DNA of 37,881 nucleotides, taken from a virus. Positions 3,118-14,854 of this stretch are shown here, one piece after another (positions within the stretch are counted from its first letter, which is position 1; the number at the start of each line of letters is the position of its first letter). The translations under genes were made by a program, and so were the position numbers. A model generated the notes under the pieces. That model did not search any database and was not told the DNA's origin. It saw only the letters and a list, made by a program, of their open reading frames with translations. The stretch is from the IMG/VR virus record IMGVR_UViG_3300046797_000014, positions 1 to 37,881 of that record; one strand, 5' to 3'.

Positions 3118-3775
3118 TCTCGATCAACTCCTTCTTGCGGTGATATTCCTTGGTCAGGAACTCGTAGGCGGTTTCCGAGCGGAGCTTGATGTGATCTAGC
3201 GTCACGCTGTTATCGGACCAGATGAGGCCCAACTCGTCAAGATCGTTGGCGCCGAGGATCGCTCGGCGGATGCGCCCGGCCTGCTTCTGCAAATCGGTTT
3301 CCTCATCACCGCTGTGCCGGATTTCCACCTTCTCCTTGTCGGGATCGTCATCGTCGCCGGTCTTGATCTGGAAAAGGCCGCGCATGAGCTGCTTCATGGC
3401 GTAGGACTGTGCCGACCCCGCCGCTTGAGCGCCGGTTGCATAGACCATGACCGTCTTGTAAATCGGGCCATAGGCTTCACCGGATTGGTGAACGAGGGTG
3501 AAGGCGAAGCGCGAAAGCCACATGGCGCGCGGCCCCCTCCCGGTCATCATATCGACCACGCGCGCCGGATCATCCTCGTTAGGAATGATGAACAGGCCGG
3601 CGGCGATGCAGTGGCCCCGGACGTGAGCAATGAAGTCGTCAATCGAGGCGTACATGTACTTGCCGCCTTCCTTGTTTTCATGCTCCTTGCCGAGGGTACC
3701 GAGCGCGGACATGACCTCAATCACGGCCTTCGCTATCGCTTGCGGAAATGCAGTTTCCGGAGTAGAAGCAGCCAT
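3110..3775 (-). CDS. erf: ERF-family single-strand DNA annealing protein
   Basis: A 221-residue protein of the ERF superfamily, named after the P22 essential recombination function. These proteins form rings on single-stranded DNA and anneal complementary strands for circularisation and recombination. The conserved core covers residues 10-130: KAVIEVMSALGTLGKEHENK, GGKYMYASIDDFIAHVRGHC, MWLSRFAFTLVHQSGEAYG and the family signature GAQAAGSAQSYAMKQLMRGL. An acidic segment (DDDDPDKEKVE) links to a C-terminal helical tail. It lies in an operon with two HNH proteins and RusA, which together make a full recombination set. It overlaps the upstream gene by 43 bases and the downstream gene by eight. 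Confidence 0.92.
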   Translation of the reverse strand: MAASTPETAFPQAIAKAVIEVMSALGTLGKEHENKEGGKYMYASIDDFIAHVRGHCIAAGLFIIPNEDDPARVVDMMTGRGPRAMWLSRFAFTLVHQSGEAYGPIYKTVMVYATGAQAAGSAQSYAMKQLMRGLFQIKTGDDDDPDKEKVEIRHSGDEETDLQKQAGRIRRAILGANDLDELGLIWSDNSVTLDHIKLRSETAYEFLTKEYHRKKELIENG

Positions 3776-4017
3776 TCAAATTCGCTCCTTGAAATGGGCT
3801 GAGCCCGATTGATTATGAACCTGATTGGCACGGCACGAGCCCGCGCCGAATGTGTTGCCGGATACCACTCGGCCCTAAGCCACTGGTCCGATAGCAGTTC
3901 CCATGTTTCGGGATCGCGCTCGCCGTCTTCGAGAAAGACCTGAATCGGTATCCAGTGGCCCTTCGCACGGCGGCGGACCTTGTAAAATCCCTCGTCAAGC
4001 CAGTCGATTTGCGGCAT
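3733..4017 (-). CDS. phage protein, unknown function (94 aa)
   Basis: ATG 4017-4015 is chosen over an in-frame TTG at 4035-4033. The product starts MPQIDWLDEGFYKVRRRAKG and continues HWIPIQVFLEDGERDPETWE, then EWYPATHSARARAVPIRFII. This reads as a small beta-rich phage domain with conserved Trp and acidic loops. The last 15 codons overlap the 5' end of erf, so the tail may be dispensable. No catalytic motif is seen. Confidence 0.6.
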   Translation of the reverse strand: MPQIDWLDEGFYKVRRRAKGHWIPIQVFLEDGERDPETWELLSDQWLRAEWYPATHSARARAVPIRFIINRAQPISRSEFEWLLLLRKLHFRKR

Positions 4018-4059
4018 TTCACGACCGTTCCCCAAACTGAGCTAGCCCATCCATCGAGC

Positions 4060-4284
4060 CTATTCGTCTGCGTCTTCCGGAAGATCGGGCGCAGAAAGCA
4101 GAGCGTTCGCATATTCGGTTGCCTCGCGGGCAATCGCGCGCTGTTCCAGAACTTCCCGCAGCAGATTGGAATCGGCGACGGTATAGGTCTGGGCGAACTC
4201 GGCCTTGAAATCGGAAATCGCGTTCTGGCGCTTCTCGATTTCCAGCACGGCATCAAGCAAAAGCCTGTTGGTCAACTCGGTCAT
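4060..4284 (-). CDS. small helical protein, unknown function (74 aa)
   Basis: A 74-residue, mostly helical and acidic protein: MTELTNRLLLDAVLEIEKRQ, then AISDFKAEFAQTYTVADSNL and REVLEQRAIAREATEYANAL. The heptad-like spacing of Leu and Ala suggests a short coiled coil. GAGAGA lies five bases before ATG 4284-4282, and the start overlaps the upstream TGA. A 42-base gap separates it from the next gene. Function unknown. Confidence 0.6.
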   Translation of the reverse strand: MTELTNRLLLDAVLEIEKRQNAISDFKAEFAQTYTVADSNLLREVLEQRAIAREATEYANALLSAPDLPEDADE

Positions 4285-4466
4285 TTTCTCTCTCCTTCAA
4301 ATTCCACCAGCCCATCAATCCTCGCCCGATGCTCCCGGTTAGCTCTGGTCCGGTAGGCTTGTTGCGATGCGGGACGGGCCTTGCGGCGGCGCTCCCAAGC
4401 TTCGTTCAGGCTGTCCTCCAGCTCGTAGCGGCGGTTGATCGCAATGAGGTCGATGAGGTCGCTCAT
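4281..4466 (-). CDS. small basic helical protein, unknown function (61 aa)
   Basis: A 61-residue charged protein beginning MSDLIDLIAINRRYELEDSL and continuing ERRRKARPASQQAYRTRANR. Both ends overlap the neighbouring genes by four bases, supporting translation as part of the operon. It resembles the many small Arg-rich helical proteins of phage early regions; no domain is recognisable. Confidence 0.55.
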   Translation of the reverse strand: MSDLIDLIAINRRYELEDSLNEAWERRRKARPASQQAYRTRANREHRARIDGLVEFEGERK

Positions 4467-9250: not shown

Positions 9251-9372
9251 CCCTCCGCACCGCCTTCTCCTTCCTCTTTACCCCGGTGGAGAGTGGGTTT
9301 CATTCCTGGTGTGTGATTTTGGGGATGGGGCTTGTTGCTGTGATCTTCGCGGCTTTGGCGGTGGTGTCGTGA
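9247..9372 (+). CDS. 41-residue membrane peptide
   Basis: ATG 9247 overlaps the previous TGA (ATGA). The product MTLRTAFSFLFTPVESGFHS ends in a hydrophobic helix (WCVILGMGLVAVIFAALAVV), so it is a single-span membrane microprotein. Overlaps on both sides suggest real translation. Function unknown. Confidence 0.5.
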   Translation: MTLRTAFSFLFTPVESGFHSWCVILGMGLVAVIFAALAVVS

Positions 9373-9509
9373 CGGCGCGTCGGCAAGCCGACCGGGTGCT
9401 ACCGGCTACGCCGCCCGAGCCCGCAAGCGGTCTCGTCCCTCCGGGTGACGCCCCCTCGCGCTGTAATAAAGGGCGCTGGCTCAGCCCGTATCTTTGGGGA
9501 ATTATATAG
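9369..9509 (+). CDS. 46-residue ORF, uncertain
   Basis: GTG 9369-9371 overlaps the TGA of the membrane peptide, and its TAG ends one base before the ATG of the next gene. The product is Pro/Arg-rich (VTARRQADRVLPATPPEPAS ... SPYLWGII) and not convincingly protein-like. It may be only a spacer carrying the ribosome site of the next gene. Confidence 0.28.
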   Translation: MTARRQADRVLPATPPEPASGLVPPGDAPSRCNKGRWLSPYLWGII

Positions 9510-10307
9510 ATGACTTCCGATAATACGACGCTTCGGACAATGCGGGTCGCTACGGGGCTGAGCGGAAAGGCGTTCGCTGCTGAGCTTGGGATAAGCGCCG
9601 AGCACCTGAGCCGGATGGAGAACGGCGCGAAGCCAATCCCCCGATGGATGCTACTGGCGTCGCGGGCGCTCGTCGCTTCTTCCAATCCAGTATACCGCAA
9701 GGGTGCCAACGGGCAAGAAGTCGAAATCCTGCTTATTGACGGCGTGAAGATTGAAGTAGATCGTGAAATTTCGCCTATTGTCCGCGCCCTCAAAGCTGCG
9801 GGAGCGTCGACCAAGGCGTCTTGCTCCGGCCACGGCCACCGCCCCGGCAACATCGTCCTGCGCGACGGGCGGGAAATCATCATCGCCCGTGATTTTGACG
9901 AGGCCCGCAAGATCGACAGGCTGTTTCCGCTCGACATCAATGGCGAGCCGATTCGGGGAGCGGAGATAATGAAATCGGAAGTCATCTATATAGGTTCCTA
10001 TCTTTGGCCCTGTCGCGCCTGTGGTGCTGTGGAGCCGACGCCCGAAGGCCACGATCCGTGCATTGCAAATCTTCCCGGAGTCGATTTCGCGTGCTGCGGG
10101 CATGGTCGACAGCCGGGCTATGTTGCCTTCACCAATGGCACGGTGATCCGAGGCGAGTTCGAGGAGTTCCATGGCTGGAGAGACCCCGCCGATGCGGTCG
10201 CTCACAGGCCTCGCGATAGGGATGGCAGCGGCGAAGCCGGACAGACTGCATCGCAGGCTGGACCCGAAGGGCAACAGCCCGACGCCGAAGGCGGATCGCC
10301 CGAATGA
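9510..10307 (+). CDS. helix-turn-helix protein fused to two CxGHGxxPG repeats
   Basis: A 265-residue composite protein. Residues 6-45 form an XRE-type helix-turn-helix (LRTMRVATGLSGKAFAAELG, SAEHLSRMENG). Two related modules follow: CSGHGHRPGNIVLRDGREI at 105-123 and CCGHGRQPGYVAFTNGTVI at 195-213, each preceded by a strand region. A CxxC (CRAC, 168-171) and other Cys residues lie before the second copy. The two modules look like separate small phage proteins joined to a DNA-binding domain. An internal ATG at 9969 (residue 154) follows GCGGAG, so the second module might also be made on its own. The disordered Gly/Glu tail covers residues 225-265. Regulation of phage or host genes is inferred from the HTH only. 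Confidence 0.7.
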   Translation: MTSDNTTLRTMRVATGLSGKAFAAELGISAEHLSRMENGAKPIPRWMLLASRALVASSNPVYRKGANGQEVEILLIDGVKIEVDREISPIVRALKAAGASTKASCSGHGHRPGNIVLRDGREIIIARDFDEARKIDRLFPLDINGEPIRGAEIMKSEVIYIGSYLWPCRACGAVEPTPEGHDPCIANLPGVDFACCGHGRQPGYVAFTNGTVIRGEFEEFHGWRDPADAVAHRPRDRDGSGEAGQTASQAGPEGQQPDAEGGSPE

Positions 10308-10471
10308 CATATCCCCACACCAGCATAGAAGCCGGGACACTGGCAGCAATCGACATGCTCGGCTCAATCGAGACACGCCAAACCCGTTGGCTTCTTCGCG
10401 CTGGTCCCATCGCACGCCAGTTGAACGAGCAATCAGCCAACGACCCACAGGATGAGGAACAGCCGAGATGA
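10304..10471 (+). CDS. small early protein (55 aa)
   Basis: This gene is too short for usual cut-offs. ATG 10304-10306 overlaps the TGA of the HTH gene and its TGA (10469-10471) overlaps the next ATG. The product MTYPHTSIEAGTLAAIDMLG, then SIETRQTRWLLRAGPIARQL, is a helical amphipathic peptide with an acidic tail. The double overlap is the main evidence. Function unknown. Confidence 0.62.
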   Translation: MTYPHTSIEAGTLAAIDMLGSIETRQTRWLLRAGPIARQLNEQSANDPQDEEQPR

Positions 10472-10737
10472 GCAGCATGACAGACCAAGAGATTCTAGCG
10501 CTTCCGATGCAGGAAAACGACAGCGGCGCTTCGACGATAACTGGCTATTTCCGTGCCCTACTCACCAAACTTTTCGAGGAAGAAGAAGGGTTCAGCGGCA
10601 AGCGTCCGTTCGGCAATAGCGGGTGGATTTATGCGGTATTATGTAGCAAATGCACCAACGATGTGACGTGCGCCCCTACGGGCGATTACCCCTGTCATCA
10701 TCCGCGATGCACGAACTGCCTGATACCGGCGCGCTGA
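10468..10737 (+). pseudogene. 5' half of phage gene interrupted by the transposon
   Basis: ATG 10468 overlaps the previous TGA. The first 55 codons (to 10632) are native: MSSMTDQEILALPMQENDSG, then TITGYFRALLTKLFEEEEGF and SGKRPFGNSGWIY, a small phage protein type in which GKRPFGNSGW is typical. From 10633 the frame runs into the left inverted repeat of the transposon and adds 34 foreign residues (AVLCSKCTNDVTCAPTG...) before a TGA at 10735-10737. The matching 3' half lies at 14707-14854. The gene was the last of the rightward operon and is now split. Confidence 0.75.
10633..10701 (+). repeat. left terminal inverted repeat
   Basis: It starts GCGGTATTATGTAGCAAATG and is identical over its first 27 bases (10633-10659) to the reverse complement of 14680-14706. 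In the same register two further blocks of nine bases match perfectly: 10676-10684 with 14655-14663 and 10693-10701 with 14638-14646. The repeat therefore extends imperfectly to 69 bases. Confidence 0.9.
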
Positions 10738-10748
10738 GGAGGCGCCGG
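10726..10748. terminator. GC hairpin at convergent gene ends, weak terminator candidate
   Basis: CCGGCGC (10726-10732) pairs with GCGCCGG (10742-10748) around a nine-base loop. It lies between the end of the chimeric rightward ORF (10737) and the end of the leftward membrane-protein gene (10762). Neither strand has a T-tract after the stem, so termination would be weak or factor-assisted. Confidence 0.35.
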
Positions 10749-10761
10749 AAATGTGTGGTGG

Positions 10762-11727
10762 TTAGCGGCCCTTGCGGCGACCGGCCTTAATGTCATCGAA
10801 AGCGCGCAGGAACGCCACGGGCCAGCGGACGTACCACGCCTCTTTTTGGCTTCCCGGCAGCCGCAGGTCTTCCCACAAGTTCTCACTTGGGACCGGCCCA
10901 AGACCCTCCCCGCTGAAATTGTCATCAAGCTCGATTTGATAGGCGAAACTTGTTCGCCAACGCCGATAGCCGGTGTCTCGGTATACCGAATAGCCGAGGA
11001 GATAGACCGATTTGGTGTTCCTGATTGCCTCGGCGGCCCCCCTCCGAAATGTCCATTTGGAGGATTTGTCTTCCGCTATCGAAACCCCAGTGTTGGGCGC
11101 GCAATGCACAAAGCGATTTTCTTCAAACTCCGTCCCGCAGATAAGAGGCAGGTTTTCATCATTCGGAATGCCTGCGGGATACACGCACCATTTCTCCAGC
11201 CAGCAGCCCGTTTTGCCCTGATTGATCAGAGACCAGCTCAGCTTGATAGCAACGGCGTCCGGCTCGTCCTCCGGTTCGTCCCCTTTGGCGATTTTGGCCT
11301 TGCTGATCAGCATCAGCGGCCTTTCAGTTTCAATCTGGGCTTCAACCGCATCAACGGCAGCCTGCGTGCCTTTCACCGTGTAGCGCAGAGTGACCAGCAA
11401 CAGCCCGATCCCGAGGAGGCTCGCGAAGAAACCACGCGCCGCCCAGTCAGCGGTTTCCTCGGCGGAATCCGCAGCCTTCCACTGAGCGCAAAGATCGGAA
11501 TTGCGGTTGTCCTGATCTTGATCGCAGCGCCGGTCGTGATCCGGGGAACCGACCGTATTATTGATCGCCGCCGCAACCGTATTCGCGGCGTGCGCGATCT
11601 CTGTATCGGGCTGAGTCTGTTGGGGCTGAGCGGTCTGTTTTGGGAATATGCCGTTGTTAGGTGCGGTGGCTGCTAAGATCAGCCATCCGACAAGCGCAAG
11701 GAAGATGCCCCGATAGCTTCCAGACAT
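10762..11727 (-). CDS. two-span membrane protein, transposon passenger (321 aa)
   Basis: A 321-residue protein. An N-terminal hydrophobic helix (GIFLALVGWLILAATA, residues 7-22) is followed by a Gln/Asn-rich linker with a Cys pair, then a second helix (FFASLLGIGLLLVTLRYTVK, about 99-118). A soluble C-terminal domain of about 200 residues follows, with a coiled start (GTQAAVDAVEAQIETERPLM) and a strand-rich body. ADWAARGFFASLLGIG is a pattern I recall from membrane proteins of sphingomonad accessory regions, but no function is known. It overlaps the DUF6471 gene by 49 bases and should be co-transcribed with it from the promoter at 11934-11962. Confidence 0.72.
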   Translation of the reverse strand: MSGSYRGIFLALVGWLILAATAPNNGIFPKQTAQPQQTQPDTEIAHAANTVAAAINNTVGSPDHDRRCDQDQDNRNSDLCAQWKAADSAEETADWAARGFFASLLGIGLLLVTLRYTVKGTQAAVDAVEAQIETERPLMLISKAKIAKGDEPEDEPDAVAIKLSWSLINQGKTGCWLEKWCVYPAGIPNDENLPLICGTEFEENRFVHCAPNTGVSIAEDKSSKWTFRRGAAEAIRNTKSVYLLGYSVYRDTGYRRWRTSFAYQIELDDNFSGEGLGPVPSENLWEDLRLPGSQKEAWYVRWPVAFLRAFDDIKAGRRKGR

Positions 11728-11906
11728 TGGATCAAGAACACCGCTGTGAATTTGCCCCGGCTGATCTTGTTCCTGATATTCTGCTCGGAGTCCACAACGC
11801 CAACGGCTGCCAGCTTATCGACCAGCTCCAGATAGGAGACATTGCGGCGCTTCAGCTCAACCTTGAGCAGCGTCTTGACCTTCGCTTCCCAAACCGTGTC
11901 CGCCAT
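11679..11906 (-). CDS. DUF6471-family small protein, possible regulator
   Basis: A 75-residue protein; GGAG lies seven bases before ATG 11906-11904. It matches the DUF6471 pattern: LLKVELKRRNVSYLELVDKL, then GVVDSEQNIRNKISRGKFTA and FLIQCLEAIGASSLRL. The layout (Tyr-x-x-Leu helix, then NIRNKISRGKFT) reads like a compact XRE-type helix-turn-helix, so DNA binding is plausible. It diverges from the transposase gene and the two promoters overlap at their -35 boxes, so this protein could limit transposase expression. The regulatory role is inference; the family itself is uncharacterised. Confidence 0.78.
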   Translation of the reverse strand: MADTVWEAKVKTLLKVELKRRNVSYLELVDKLAAVGVVDSEQNIRNKISRGKFTAVFLIQCLEAIGASSLRLSDG

Positions 11907-11933
11907 GATGTAACTCCATTCGTCGCAAATGCC

Positions 11934-11985
11934 ATCATATGCGATACGAACGTCATTGACAACAGTGCATGTATGTCACTATATC
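11934..11985. promoter_or_regulatory. back-to-back promoters for DUF6471 and transposase
   Basis: Rightward: TTGACA (11956-11961), an 18-base spacer and TATATC (11980-11985), 28 bases before the transposase ATG. Leftward: TTGTCA (11962-11957), a 17-base spacer and TATGAT (11939-11934), 28 bases before the DUF6471 ATG. The -35 boxes share five bases, so the two promoters cannot be occupied together. Both are close to the sigma-70 consensus. Confidence 0.68.
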
Positions 11986-12012
11986 CGATGCATAAGCAAC
12001 GGAAACGATGAC

Positions 12013-12969
12013 ATGCAGCACTTCCTCCTCTCCGCCGCCGCCCGCACTCTGAGCCTCAAGCAGGTTTTCCAGATGGGCGAGGATCGGGCCTATCAGACGT
12101 TCTGCCTCCTGCGCTGGCCGGAGACGGACGGCGAGGCCGTTTGTCCGCGCTGCGGCTGCTGCGAAACCTATGGGATCACCACCCGCCGCCGCTTCAAGTG
12201 CGTCGGCTGCCACCACCAGTTTTCCGTCACGTCCGGCACGATCTTCGCCTCGCGCAAGCTGAGCTTCACGGATCTACTCGCGGCCATCGTCATCTTCGTG
12301 AACGGCGCCAAGGGCGTCTCCGCGTTGCAGGTGAGCCGCGATCTGGACGTGCAGTACAAGACGGCCTTCGTGCTGTCGCACAAGCTGCGCGAGGCGATGG
12401 CCCGCGAGCAAATCGGCCGCGAGCTGAACGGCATTGTCGAGATCGACGGCGGATATTTCGGCGGCCATGTGAAGCCGGAAAACTACGTCGCCGACCGCAA
12501 GGACCGCCGCCTCAAAGCCAACCAGTCTGGCAAGCGCGAGTGCGTCGTAATCATGCGGGAGCGCAATGGCCGCTCGCTTCCGTTCGTGGTCGCCAACGAG
12601 GGCGACGCGGTTCCGATCATTCGCGACCGCGTCGGCACGCTGGCGACGATCTACGCCGATGAGGGTGCGGGTTGGGATGCGCTTCATGCCGGTTGGGACA
12701 TGCGCCGAGTCAATCACAGCGTTGCGTTCATGGATGAGGGCGTTTGCACCAATCAGGCGGAGAGCTATTTCAGCCGTCTGCGCCGCGCCGAGATCGGCAC
12801 GCACCACCACATCGCCGGCCCGTACCTTGCGGCTTACGCCCGCGAAATGTCGTTCCGCGAGGACAATCGGCGCGTTTCCAACGGCACGCAGGCGACGATG
12901 GTTACGGAAGCTGCGCTGGCGGCCCCGGTGTCGCGCCAGTGGGCAGGCTACTGGCAGCGGGCAGCCTAG
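12013..12969 (+). CDS. IS1595-family (ISXO2-like) transposase
   Basis: A 318-residue transposase from ATG 12013; the frame is open further upstream but that part overlaps the promoter. Residues 44-66 form a zinc ribbon (CPRCGCCETY ... FKCVGCHHQF), followed by the helix-turn-helix part of the family (KGVSALQVSRDLDVQYKTAF). The catalytic domain begins with VEIDGGYFGGH (first Asp), then IYADEGAGWDAL (second Asp), and VCTNQAESYFSRLRRAEIGT with HHHIAGPYLAAYAREMSFRE completes the ISXO2-like DDE core. No frameshift or missing catalytic residue is seen, so it may be active. Its TAG interlocks with the TAG of the convergent gene ending at 12966. It is the only transposase between the inverted repeats. 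Confidence 0.93.
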   Translation: MQHFLLSAAARTLSLKQVFQMGEDRAYQTFCLLRWPETDGEAVCPRCGCCETYGITTRRRFKCVGCHHQFSVTSGTIFASRKLSFTDLLAAIVIFVNGAKGVSALQVSRDLDVQYKTAFVLSHKLREAMAREQIGRELNGIVEIDGGYFGGHVKPENYVADRKDRRLKANQSGKRECVVIMRERNGRSLPFVVANEGDAVPIIRDRVGTLATIYADEGAGWDALHAGWDMRRVNHSVAFMDEGVCTNQAESYFSRLRRAEIGTHHHIAGPYLAAYAREMSFREDNRRVSNGTQATMVTEAALAAPVSRQWAGYWQRAA

Positions 12970-13385
12970 CCGTAGGCCTCGCGAAATACCGCGATGTCCA
13001 CTGGCGTAAGGGGGCGCGCCCCGCTGCCGTCGCAGATAAAGAACTGGTCTATCGGGATGCCCTTGAACCGCTTCTTGAGCGCGGAGTTGGACACATCGAC
13101 AACTTCTCGATGACACTCATCTCCGGTGTCAGAGAGCGTTTCGATGATTGTGTAATTCGCGGGCAGTTGGGCCGGGTCGAGATAGTAGAAGACAGCCGGG
13201 TCCCCGCCCACGTTTTGATAGTAGTGGGCGATGTGCTGGCACACTACGCCACTTGCAGCCTCCCCGCATTCGCGGTGGAAGATGGACATGCCACCACCAT
13301 CAGTGGATTTTTTGAATGCCAAGTCGTTGAATCGGTTGAGATGATGGTCAAAGTTCCGAGGGTGAACAAGTCGGACGTATTCCAT
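12966..13385 (-). CDS. passenger cassette protein 3, unknown function (139 aa)
   Basis: A 139-residue protein beginning MEYVRLVHPRNFDHHLNRFN. It has a conserved-looking centre with Cys and His (REC at about 38-40, VCQHIAHYYQNVGGDPAVFY) and CHREVVDVSNSALKKRFKGI, then IDQFFICDGSGARPLTPVDI. The scattered Cys/His residues could bind metal. It overlaps the gene before it by 142 bases in another frame, and it ends inside the transposase stop codon. I do not recognise a characterised family. With its two upstream partners it forms a compact cargo operon of the transposon. Confidence 0.68.
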   Translation of the reverse strand: MEYVRLVHPRNFDHHLNRFNDLAFKKSTDGGGMSIFHRECGEAASGVVCQHIAHYYQNVGGDPAVFYYLDPAQLPANYTIIETLSDTGDECHREVVDVSNSALKKRFKGIPIDQFFICDGSGARPLTPVDIAVFREAYG

Positions 13386-13750
13386 ATGCGTCTCGCAACT
13401 TCCCTAACCAGCCACTCCTTTGCTCTGGCAGTGTCAACAGCGTCAACCTCGCTGACATCATGCCCGGCATTTTCATAAGAGCAGGCGATCTCACCCGTGG
13501 GATCAATAGTGAAAGCCACGTGGTGACGTTGATAATAACCCGTTAGAAGTACCTCACCATCCGCACCGGCAAACGCGTCGGTGCGCGTCATGCCGTTCAG
13601 GATAAGCGTATTGAGTAAATCGGCGGCAATTTCAACGGCGCGCGCGGAAGGCGCGTCACCAGAGCCATAATGCCAACCATGTGGAAGGCCTAGAAAGGCC
13701 TCCAGCTTTTTCAGCGTCCGAGACTTCGGATCAGTGACGGCCCGATACAT
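13244..13750 (-). CDS. passenger cassette protein 2, unknown function (168 aa)
   Basis: A 168-residue protein starting at ATG 13750-13748, overlapping the upstream gene by 20 bases. The core reads KKLEAFLGLPHGWHYGSGDA, PSARAVEIAADLLNTLILNG and TDAFAGADGEVLLTGYYQRH, then HVAFTIDPTGEIACSYENAG. I recall this type (LPxGWHYGxG ... TDAFPGxDGEI) as widespread among proteobacterial accessory genes, always uncharacterised. The last 45 residues lie in the region that also encodes the start of the next gene and look less conserved, so the original stop may have been lost. Confidence 0.66.
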   Translation of the reverse strand: MYRAVTDPKSRTLKKLEAFLGLPHGWHYGSGDAPSARAVEIAADLLNTLILNGMTRTDAFAGADGEVLLTGYYQRHHVAFTIDPTGEIACSYENAGHDVSEVDAVDTARAKEWLVREVARRIWNTSDLFTLGTLTIISTDSTTWHSKNPLMVVACPSSTANAGRLQVA

Positions 13751-14051
13751 CCTGTTGTTCCTTAAGAGCCGCAGCGGCCATGCGGCTGTCTACGTCATGT
13801 GTGGTCAGCATCTCTTGGCCGACTATTTGCTCCAGGTTTCCTACTGTGGTTCCGAGCGCCAGCGCCAGAGTCTTGGCCACGGTAAAGGACATGTTGAGAA
13901 ATGCGATGGGGAGCCCATTTCGCTCCAGAAGCACAGCCACGTCACCCGAGCCCATGCCAGCGGCAAAGCCATTGAAATAGTATTGGGGCACCTCGGCTGT
14001 GAGTCCAGCGCGGATTCTGTCTTCCGCCAGCACTTCGGTTGGCTCGTCCAT
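13731..14051 (-). CDS. passenger cassette protein 1, DUF3467-like (106 aa)
   Basis: ATG 14051-14049 is preferred to a TTG six codons upstream that falls inside the dyad. The product has EVPQYYFNGFAAGMGSGDVA, VLLERNGLPIAFLNMSFTVA and KTLALALGTTVGNLEQIVGQ. This resembles the DUF3467 fold pattern: a two-strand start, a strand with loss of function unknown, and a helix AKTLALALGxxVxxLE. It opens a three-gene operon whose candidate promoter and 11-base dyad lie just upstream. Family function is unknown. Confidence 0.66.
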   Translation of the reverse strand: MDEPTEVLAEDRIRAGLTAEVPQYYFNGFAAGMGSGDVAVLLERNGLPIAFLNMSFTVAKTLALALGTTVGNLEQIVGQEMLTTHDVDSRMAAAALKEQQDVSGRH

Positions 14052-14067
14052 CAGCGCCTCAACACCC

Positions 14068-14094
14068 AATAATCCCGACTGGCTCGGGATTATT
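14068..14094. promoter_or_regulatory. 11-base perfect dyad before the cassette operon
   Basis: AATAATCCCGA (14068-14078) and TCGGGATTATT (14084-14094) flank CTGGC. Outer arms ACACC (14062-14066) and GGTGT (14097-14101) add a second dyad with slight offset. It lies 17 bases upstream of the cassette start at 14051; a TATAGG hexamer sits just beyond it on the minus strand (14107-14102). An operator at the transcription start is the likely reading; a hairpin in the leader RNA is the alternative. Confidence 0.6.
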
Positions 14095-14136
14095 CAGGTG
14101 TCCTATAACACTAATGTGTGAATGGAAAGCCGGGCT

Positions 14137-14637
14137 TCAAGCCATGGGAACGACCGAATTGCCGGAAGTGCTGCCATTCCGCCAGCCGCCCTCTACGTTC
14201 GCGTCGGGCTTGGTGATCCGCCATGCCAGCAACGCGCTCTTGCCCGCCCGCCTAGACGTGACCATGCCCTTCCGCCGCAGCCGTGCGAGCGCCTCGCCGA
14301 CGCGCACCCGCACAGTCCGGCGCAGCGCCAAGTCCTGATCGTTCATGCGCCGGATGACCATGACCCGCACGGCTAGCTGGTCCGTGGTCTGCCAGTGCTG
14401 TGTCCCCCGCAGCATTTCGAGAAGCGACCGGGAGAACTCGCCACGGAAGGCGGCGTTCGGCGGCGGCAGGGGCTTGATCGGCAAATCCGAGAAGTCGATC
14501 TTCGGATCGAAAATGCGGATCGAGCTATCCAGATGGTCCAGCTCGACAACCAACCTGGCCGCCTCCGCGTGTATCGCCTCTATGCGTCCGGCTATCTCGG
14601 CGCGCTTCCGGATCAGCGCGTGCACCACGGGTTTCAT
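14137..14637 (-). CDS. winged-helix-like passenger protein (166 aa)
   Basis: A 166-residue protein whose ATG (14637-14635) abuts the inner end of the right inverted repeat. Residues 1-45 form a long helix or coiled coil (MKPVVHALIRKRAEIAGRIE, then AARLVVELDHLDSSIRIFDP). A Pro linker (PIKPLPPPNAAFRGEFSR) follows, then a winged-helix-like domain (about 70-150): LEMLRGTQHWQTTDQLAVRV, RVRVGEALARLRRKGMVTSR and KSALLAW. Proteins of this design are common in sphingomonad and rhizobial mobile DNA, as far as I recall, without known function. Its position suggests control of the element, perhaps from a promoter within the repeat. Confidence 0.7.
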   Translation of the reverse strand: MKPVVHALIRKRAEIAGRIEAIHAEAARLVVELDHLDSSIRIFDPKIDFSDLPIKPLPPPNAAFRGEFSRSLLEMLRGTQHWQTTDQLAVRVMVIRRMNDQDLALRRTVRVRVGEALARLRRKGMVTSRRAGKSALLAWRITKPDANVEGGWRNGSTSGNSVVPMA

Positions 14638-14706
14638 ATGATGACATTAGCCGCCGCCCGTAGTTATGTCTGTACTGCGGTTGGTGCATTTGCTACATAA
14701 TACCGC
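14638..14706 (-). repeat. right terminal inverted repeat
   Basis: Reverse complement of the left repeat: 27 of 27 bases over 14680-14706, with further nine-base blocks at 14655-14663 and 14638-14646. An ATG inside it (14666) is in frame with the displaced 3' half of the phage gene, so the repeat could supply a new start for that fragment. Confidence 0.9.
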
Positions 14707-14854
14707 GTTTTTCGATACCGGGCACCTTTGGGATGATTTCAGCCCGAAGAGTCCGCCGCCACTGATAAAGGCGGTTTGCAAGGCAATCGAGGATCATCTG
14801 CGCCAATACGCAGACGATGTGGCGGGGCACCTCGTAAACGTAGAGCGGCCCTAA
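14707..14854 (+). pseudogene. 3' half of the phage gene split by the transposon
   Basis: From 14708 the frame reads FFDTGHLWDDFSPKSPPPLI, KAVCKAIEDHLRQYADDVAG, then HLVNVERP and TAA at 14852-14854. It lacks a start of its own and continues the protein begun at 10468: the N-terminal half ends at GNSGWIY on the other side of the transposon. Joining the visible ends directly is out of phase by one base, so a short duplication or loss occurred at the junction. It ends the rightward operon, facing the lysis genes. Confidence 0.62.

Follow-up and report, generated by a model that had tools for sequence, protein, structure and literature searches.

Background

Siguier and colleagues are said to have described, in 2009, IS1595 family insertion sequences together with IS1595 elements that carry passenger genes. 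Transposons that are directed to a site by exchangeable protein selectors are known mainly among Tn7-like elements; Tn7 itself has two routes, with TnsD serving a safe site and TnsE serving mobile DNA. The selector TnsF guides the Tn7-like element Tn6022 and the tyrosine-recombinase transposon Tsy to the Walker B motif of comM, in a report that makes no mention of IS1595 (PMC10293859). Tn7-like elements carry defence-rich cargo (PMC8649781).

The element described here was found in the window, the whole 37,881-nucleotide stretch that was analysed. The window is an IMG/VR virus record; its genes include those for terminase small and large subunits, portal, major head protein, a virion structural protein, endolysin, an Erf-like annealing protein and an HNH endonuclease. 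The insert belongs to a large alphaproteobacterial family of cargo transposons of the IS1595 type. From sequence comparison across this family, the coiled-coil/winged-helix protein encoded at the right end is probably a dedicated target selector.

Boundaries of the window element

The sequence-only reading of the window described a 27-base perfect inverted repeat extending in register to 69 bases, and this was confirmed. Positions 10633-10659 and 14680-14706 are identical at 27 of 27 bases, and subterminal similarity is weaker (49 of 69 identical in register). A 27-bp repeat is far beyond chance; the ends of related elements reproduce it with one or two substitutions. When compared with elements that bear target duplications, the transposon proper has its ends at C|GGTATTATG (10634-14705), which leaves the outermost of the 27 repeat bases (10633/14706) in the flank. 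The duplications come into register once the outer C is counted in the repeat, as in CATCGATG of phage contig L002. The whole transposon (10634-14705, no strand assigned) is 4,072 bp long, and its ends, C|GGTATTATGTAGCAAATGCACC, were defined by comparison with relatives whose 8-bp target duplications are perfect. The left terminal inverted repeat lies at 10634-10659 (+ strand) and the right at 14680-14705 (- strand).

The window copy has the transposase and terminal repeats of an IS1595 element, and no 8-bp target duplication; its flanks read GATTTATG and CGTTTTTC. As the duplication is a trace of insertion that can be lost, IS1595 membership rests on the transposase, the ends and the relatives. 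An exact search of IMG/VR with the 22-base repeat gave zero matches; this is explained by relatives differing at one or two bases. At the DNA level the element had no match among phage records and only partial matches among plasmids, at 60-80% identity and for the most part within the transposase gene or next to it. The plasmid search gave no relative of the first cassette gene or of the winged-helix protein.

The insertion was at first thought to split one phage gene, but two different genes are truncated. The ORF on the left (10468-10632, + strand) belongs to a protein of about 85-90 aa; beyond the break its relatives in L013-L016 go on with sequence that does not resemble the right flank. 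The gene on the right (14707-14854, + strand) has a relative in L017 whose start lies some 45 aa ahead of the break. Searches with the flank genes turned up no phage with an empty site. Since the flanks derive from two genes and there is no target duplication, it is implied that the window copy would adjoin a deletion or would have arisen by recombination between two copies.

Genes of the window element

The transposase gene (12013-12969, + strand) is intact, as had been read from the sequence. It encodes an IS1595-family (ISXO2-like) protein with the domains PF12762 (E=2.9e-37) and zinc ribbon PF12760 (E=6.5e-11), both above cut-off. The ORF is open from 11929; homology begins at 12013, which is the likely start. 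No gene of the window element has a Pfam match to the TnsB/TnsC/TniQ core. The six other predicted genes all have homologues in related elements and are therefore real genes, the middle cassette gene through a weak match (E=0.007).

Divergent from the transposase gene is a 75-aa DUF6471 gene (11679-11906, - strand; PF20075, E=8e-30), found in 60 of the 72 delimited relatives. Its AF2 model (pLDDT 94) is a four-helix HTH of the XRE/C-protein-like kind, resembling the controller proteins of restriction-modification systems; Foldseek gave weak similarity to C.BclI, C.Esp1396I and HipB. The left-end membrane protein (10762-11727, - strand; 321 aa) occurs in 29 of 72 relatives and has no curated family match.

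The proposed target selector (14137-14637, - strand; 166 aa) has an AF2 model (mean pLDDT 84.5) with a long N-terminal helix and a C-terminal winged helix. Foldseek matches were to MarR and ArsR regulators and HOP2, all weak (best E 0.009). NCBIfam and Pfam hold no curated family for this protein; a weak match to HARE-HTH-like domains (best 1.5e-5) was seen in 13 of 62 winged-helix members.

The cargo is a three-gene cassette on the - strand: gene 1 (12966-13385; 139 aa), gene 2 (13244-13750; 168 aa) and gene 3 (13731-14069; 112 aa). Elsewhere the cassette was found in just two elements, L043 and L050, both from Novosphingobium. Gene 1 has homologues only in these two, gene 2 has its weak homologue in L050, and gene 3 has homologues in both L043 (E=1e-14) and L050 (E=2e-17). 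The target of L043 is comM while that of L050 is a glycosyltransferase gene, so the same cassette occurs at different targets. Against defence families, gene 2 has a weak PADLOC match to PDC-M32A, a candidate defence family (E=4.5e-4); genes 1 and 3 have no match.

The transposon family

Scans with the transposase identified 11 loci in viruses and 80 in genomes. By their paired CGGYATTAKGTAGCAAACGCACC ends, 72 relatives, the window copy among them, could be delimited; 70 are distinct, L007-L009 being one element. An 8-bp target duplication is present in 65 of the 72 (64 perfect, one with a single mismatch), and these 65 elements are 2.8-7.0 kb long. The ends, the duplications and the conserved gene order are direct observations. 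Other copies with the same kind of ends, which the sequence-only reading had proposed to look for, are therefore present in both bacteria and phage contigs; together with the transposase and the ends, they bear out its view of the insert as a cargo-carrying IS1595-family transposon.

The family core consists of the inverted ends, the IS1595 transposase, usually a divergent DUF6471 HTH gene, and the right-end coiled-coil/winged-helix protein. The winged-helix gene is present in 72 of 72 elements, nearly always on the minus strand just inside the right repeat. It and the DUF6471 gene (60 of 72) had been taken for cargo; at these frequencies they are conserved parts of the transposon, and the cargo assignment was rejected. 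The true cargo differs in nearly every copy: the 133 non-core ORFs fall into 101 clusters. Library matches were to BstA (4 members), Panacea antitoxins (5), methyltransferases, KilA-N, NYN and Fic; the recurrent types are BstA, Panacea and restriction/methylation genes. At the level of the family, defence genes are thus among the cargo.

The transposase was found in 32 of 401 same-family genomes (33 hits), about one copy per genome. Relatives also lie in other phage contigs, near endolysin genes in L002 and L003 and near a portal gene in L005. The view of a phage as carrier needs correcting in one respect: most of the family occupies fixed positions in chromosomes, which makes a phage an uncommon location. 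In L003 a second, distant IS1595-type transposase gene (3359-4321; 29% identity) directly follows the first. In L002 (4967-5218) the right-end protein stops after the coiled coil, the winged helix being lost; this element has a non-canonical target and the perfect duplication CATCGATG.

Insertion targets

Targets were read directly by joining the two flanks of each bacterial element, and exact sites recur. The most frequent is in comM/yifB after Walker A (site 1, AE^ALEV; 20 elements), with insertions in both orientations (7 and 13). Site 2 is at Walker B of the same gene (LDELPE^F; 11 elements). The gene was confirmed as YifB family (TIGR00368, E=2e-161). Two exact positions in comM hence account for 31 of the 65 duplication-verified elements; for comM-type elements such as L030, the expected target is a GAGGCGCT-type site.

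Three targets lie in glycosyltransferase genes: GGTSNH^F (4 elements), the GPTTKADCLN region of an NF011307/NfrB-like protein (GT_TKAD; 4 elements) and LD^YP (3 elements). GT_TKAD was scored per gene and not per position, because its positions vary by about 30 codons. The remaining targets are a protein C-terminus (F^DWR; 3 elements), the 3' end of mnmE (...FCIGK^stop; 2 elements, gene named from its sequence), repeats (6 elements) and a position 6-7 bp beyond tRNA-Gln (three elements).

Some loci extend this picture. L136 has a winged-helix gene (9321-9827) and no detected transposase, next to a comM gene that is interrupted at Walker B; this may be a decayed or non-autonomous element. In L154 two element ends apparently lie side by side at tRNA-Gln, which suggests a tandem insertion. 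L133 (7718-10057) combines a comM-type selector (63%) with a more distant transposase; its insertion adjoins a sequence that by eye resembles the 3' end of tRNA-Ser, with the duplication CAAATATG.

Correlation of the proposed selector with the target

The type of the right-end protein predicts the insertion site across the family, a link that the sequence-only reading had not made. On the selector tree, the 10 target labels need 10 changes (minimum 9; at least 27 in shuffles), compared with 21 on the transposase tree (shuffle mean 32.6) and 26 on the DUF6471 tree, which is no better than shuffled (shuffle mean 27.5). Leave-one-out assignment by nearest neighbour was right in 50 of 55 cases for the selector, 26 of 55 for the transposase and 19 of 47 for DUF6471.

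Target classes were set on this training set and applied to new genomes, the 32 of 401 chosen by their transposase. Of 25 elements delimited, 8 were the same as training elements and 17 were new. Among the 17, the nearest neighbour was right for 15 by selector, 4 by transposase and 6 by DUF6471; the selector alone was correct in 11 and the transposase alone in 0 (exact p=0.001). A second, class-wide draw gave 3 elements callable at 45% similarity or more, a cut chosen after the first draw had been inspected, and one of these was right (L154; not L146 or L152). Combined, the two draws give 16 of 20 for the selector and 4 of 20 for the transposase.

One alternative is that old insertions are inherited and the right-end gene simply stays with its flank while transposase and cargo recombine away. 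The distance from the winged-helix gene to the right flank is indeed no more than about 100 bp, and the clades of the comM sites correspond in part to groups of hosts. The left-end membrane gene, which is equally near a flank and serves as the control for such linkage, nevertheless gave only 5 of 23 correct in the leave-one-out comparison. The same target base is also occupied in both orientations, with at least six orientation changes on the selector tree, and by elements with selectors of one class in hosts of different families. Inherited linkage is thus unlikely.

It is very unlikely that the transposase, alone or with DUF6471, chooses the target while the role of the winged-helix protein is limited to regulating expression or binding the ends. 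The transposase tree does hold some target signal, at 21 changes against the shuffled mean. However, L027 and L030 form a natural swap: their transposases are 97.8% identical and their selectors 36%, and their targets are a repeat and comM respectively. More broadly, L025, L027 and L032 (at the repeat) have transposases 95-98% identical to that of L030 (at comM) and right-end proteins only 35-37% identical. With the tree, the 4 of 17 new cases and this swap, control of the target by the transposase was rejected; DUF6471 has no target signal.

A plain IS1595 passenger transposon, loose in its choice of target and in a phage by chance, would fit the unrelated sites of the window copy and some relatives; this reading is contradicted by the concentration at two exact comM positions, and is extremely improbable.

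Exceptions to the selector-target rule

The preferred reading remains that the right-end protein selects the target; exceptions among the delimited elements mean that this rule is strong, not absolute. The window copy is itself off-site: its selector, at 74% to that of L048, belongs to the type with NfrB-like glycosyltransferase targets, yet the copy lies in a phage and not at the predicted target. L113 and L116 have comM-type selectors but are inserted elsewhere although comM is intact; L113 interrupts a TrwC/TraI-type relaxase gene while L116 lies near a MobA/VirD2-type relaxase. L137, whose duplication is only approximate, adjoins a type ISP restriction enzyme, and L146 adjoins ftsK and an ammonium transporter gene. 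Some of these locations are in mobile DNA, a pattern among the exceptions that is at most suggestive. Among loci with a strong winged-helix hit and no strong transposase hit, two of seven are at the predicted gene and five are not.

L152 (2561-10170) is a 7.6-kb element with a GT_SNHF-type selector, located outside that gene. Its octamer, CACTTTCG, is the same as that used in L083, and may hint at a recognised core.

Proposed mechanism

The transposase would cut and join at the CGGYATTAKGTAGCAA ends, yielding the 8-bp target duplication, and the divergent DUF6471 HTH protein would probably repress the transposase. The winged helix of the selector is predicted to recognise a short conserved sequence in a host gene: the Walker A or Walker B region of comM, or NfrB-like or cellulose-synthase-like glycosyltransferases. 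Further recognised sites would be the 3' ends of mnmE and tRNA-Gln and genomic repeats. Once bound at its target, the selector may contact the transposase and bring it there. Selector exchange would give a new target, and transposase and cargo could stay unchanged.

If the preferred site is not used, the element may insert elsewhere, phages and conjugative elements included, and be carried by these between hosts; this would make a life cycle with two routes. The window copy, with its glycosyltransferase-type selector, would be a case of the second route, placed in a phage between two gene remnants after deletion or recombination. It is likely, judging from sequence, that these small proteins are a new family of exchangeable selectors guiding IS1595-type cargo transposons among conserved host sites, some of which (e.g. 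comM Walker B) serve unrelated elements guided by TnsF as well, and that the transposons spread along a second route, through phages and conjugative elements.

Comparison with known systems

A search of open-access literature gave no description of DUF6471 or of target selection by IS1595 elements; as far as that literature shows, the selector role, if confirmed, is new. If the mechanism is true, the pairing of a roughly 145-aa selector and a single-protein DDE transposase would rank among the smallest guided transposition systems, and the choice of comM would be convergent among unrelated elements. The persistence of a family rich in defence cargo at safe sites of alphaproteobacteria, with occasional phage rides, would be explained as well.

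The family shares with other IS1595 elements an ISXO2-like DDE transposase with zinc ribbon, short inverted repeats, an 8-bp duplication and passenger genes. It differs in its conserved DUF6471 and winged-helix accessory genes, its recurrent exact targets, and the fact that the target follows an accessory protein. With Tn6022 and Tsy (PMC10293859) it has in common a dedicated selector, insertion at comM Walker B, modular selector exchange and cargo. Unlike these, it has an IS1595 transposase and a small coiled-coil/winged-helix selector, with no TnsABC, TniQ or TnsF; it also uses a second comM site, glycosyltransferases, mnmE and tRNA-Gln, and inserts in both orientations.

Like Tn7, the family combines a safe chromosomal site with occasional insertions in mobile DNA, and a cargo rich in defence genes is common to it and Tn7-like elements (PMC8649781). 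In contrast to Tn7, no TnsE or TniQ homologue was seen, the second route is suggested by where the exceptions lie, and insertions occur in both orientations. The selector is best read as analogous to TnsD/TnsF yet unrelated to them. The family is one of IS1595 elements working like selector-guided transposons, and is not a member of the Tn7-like group.
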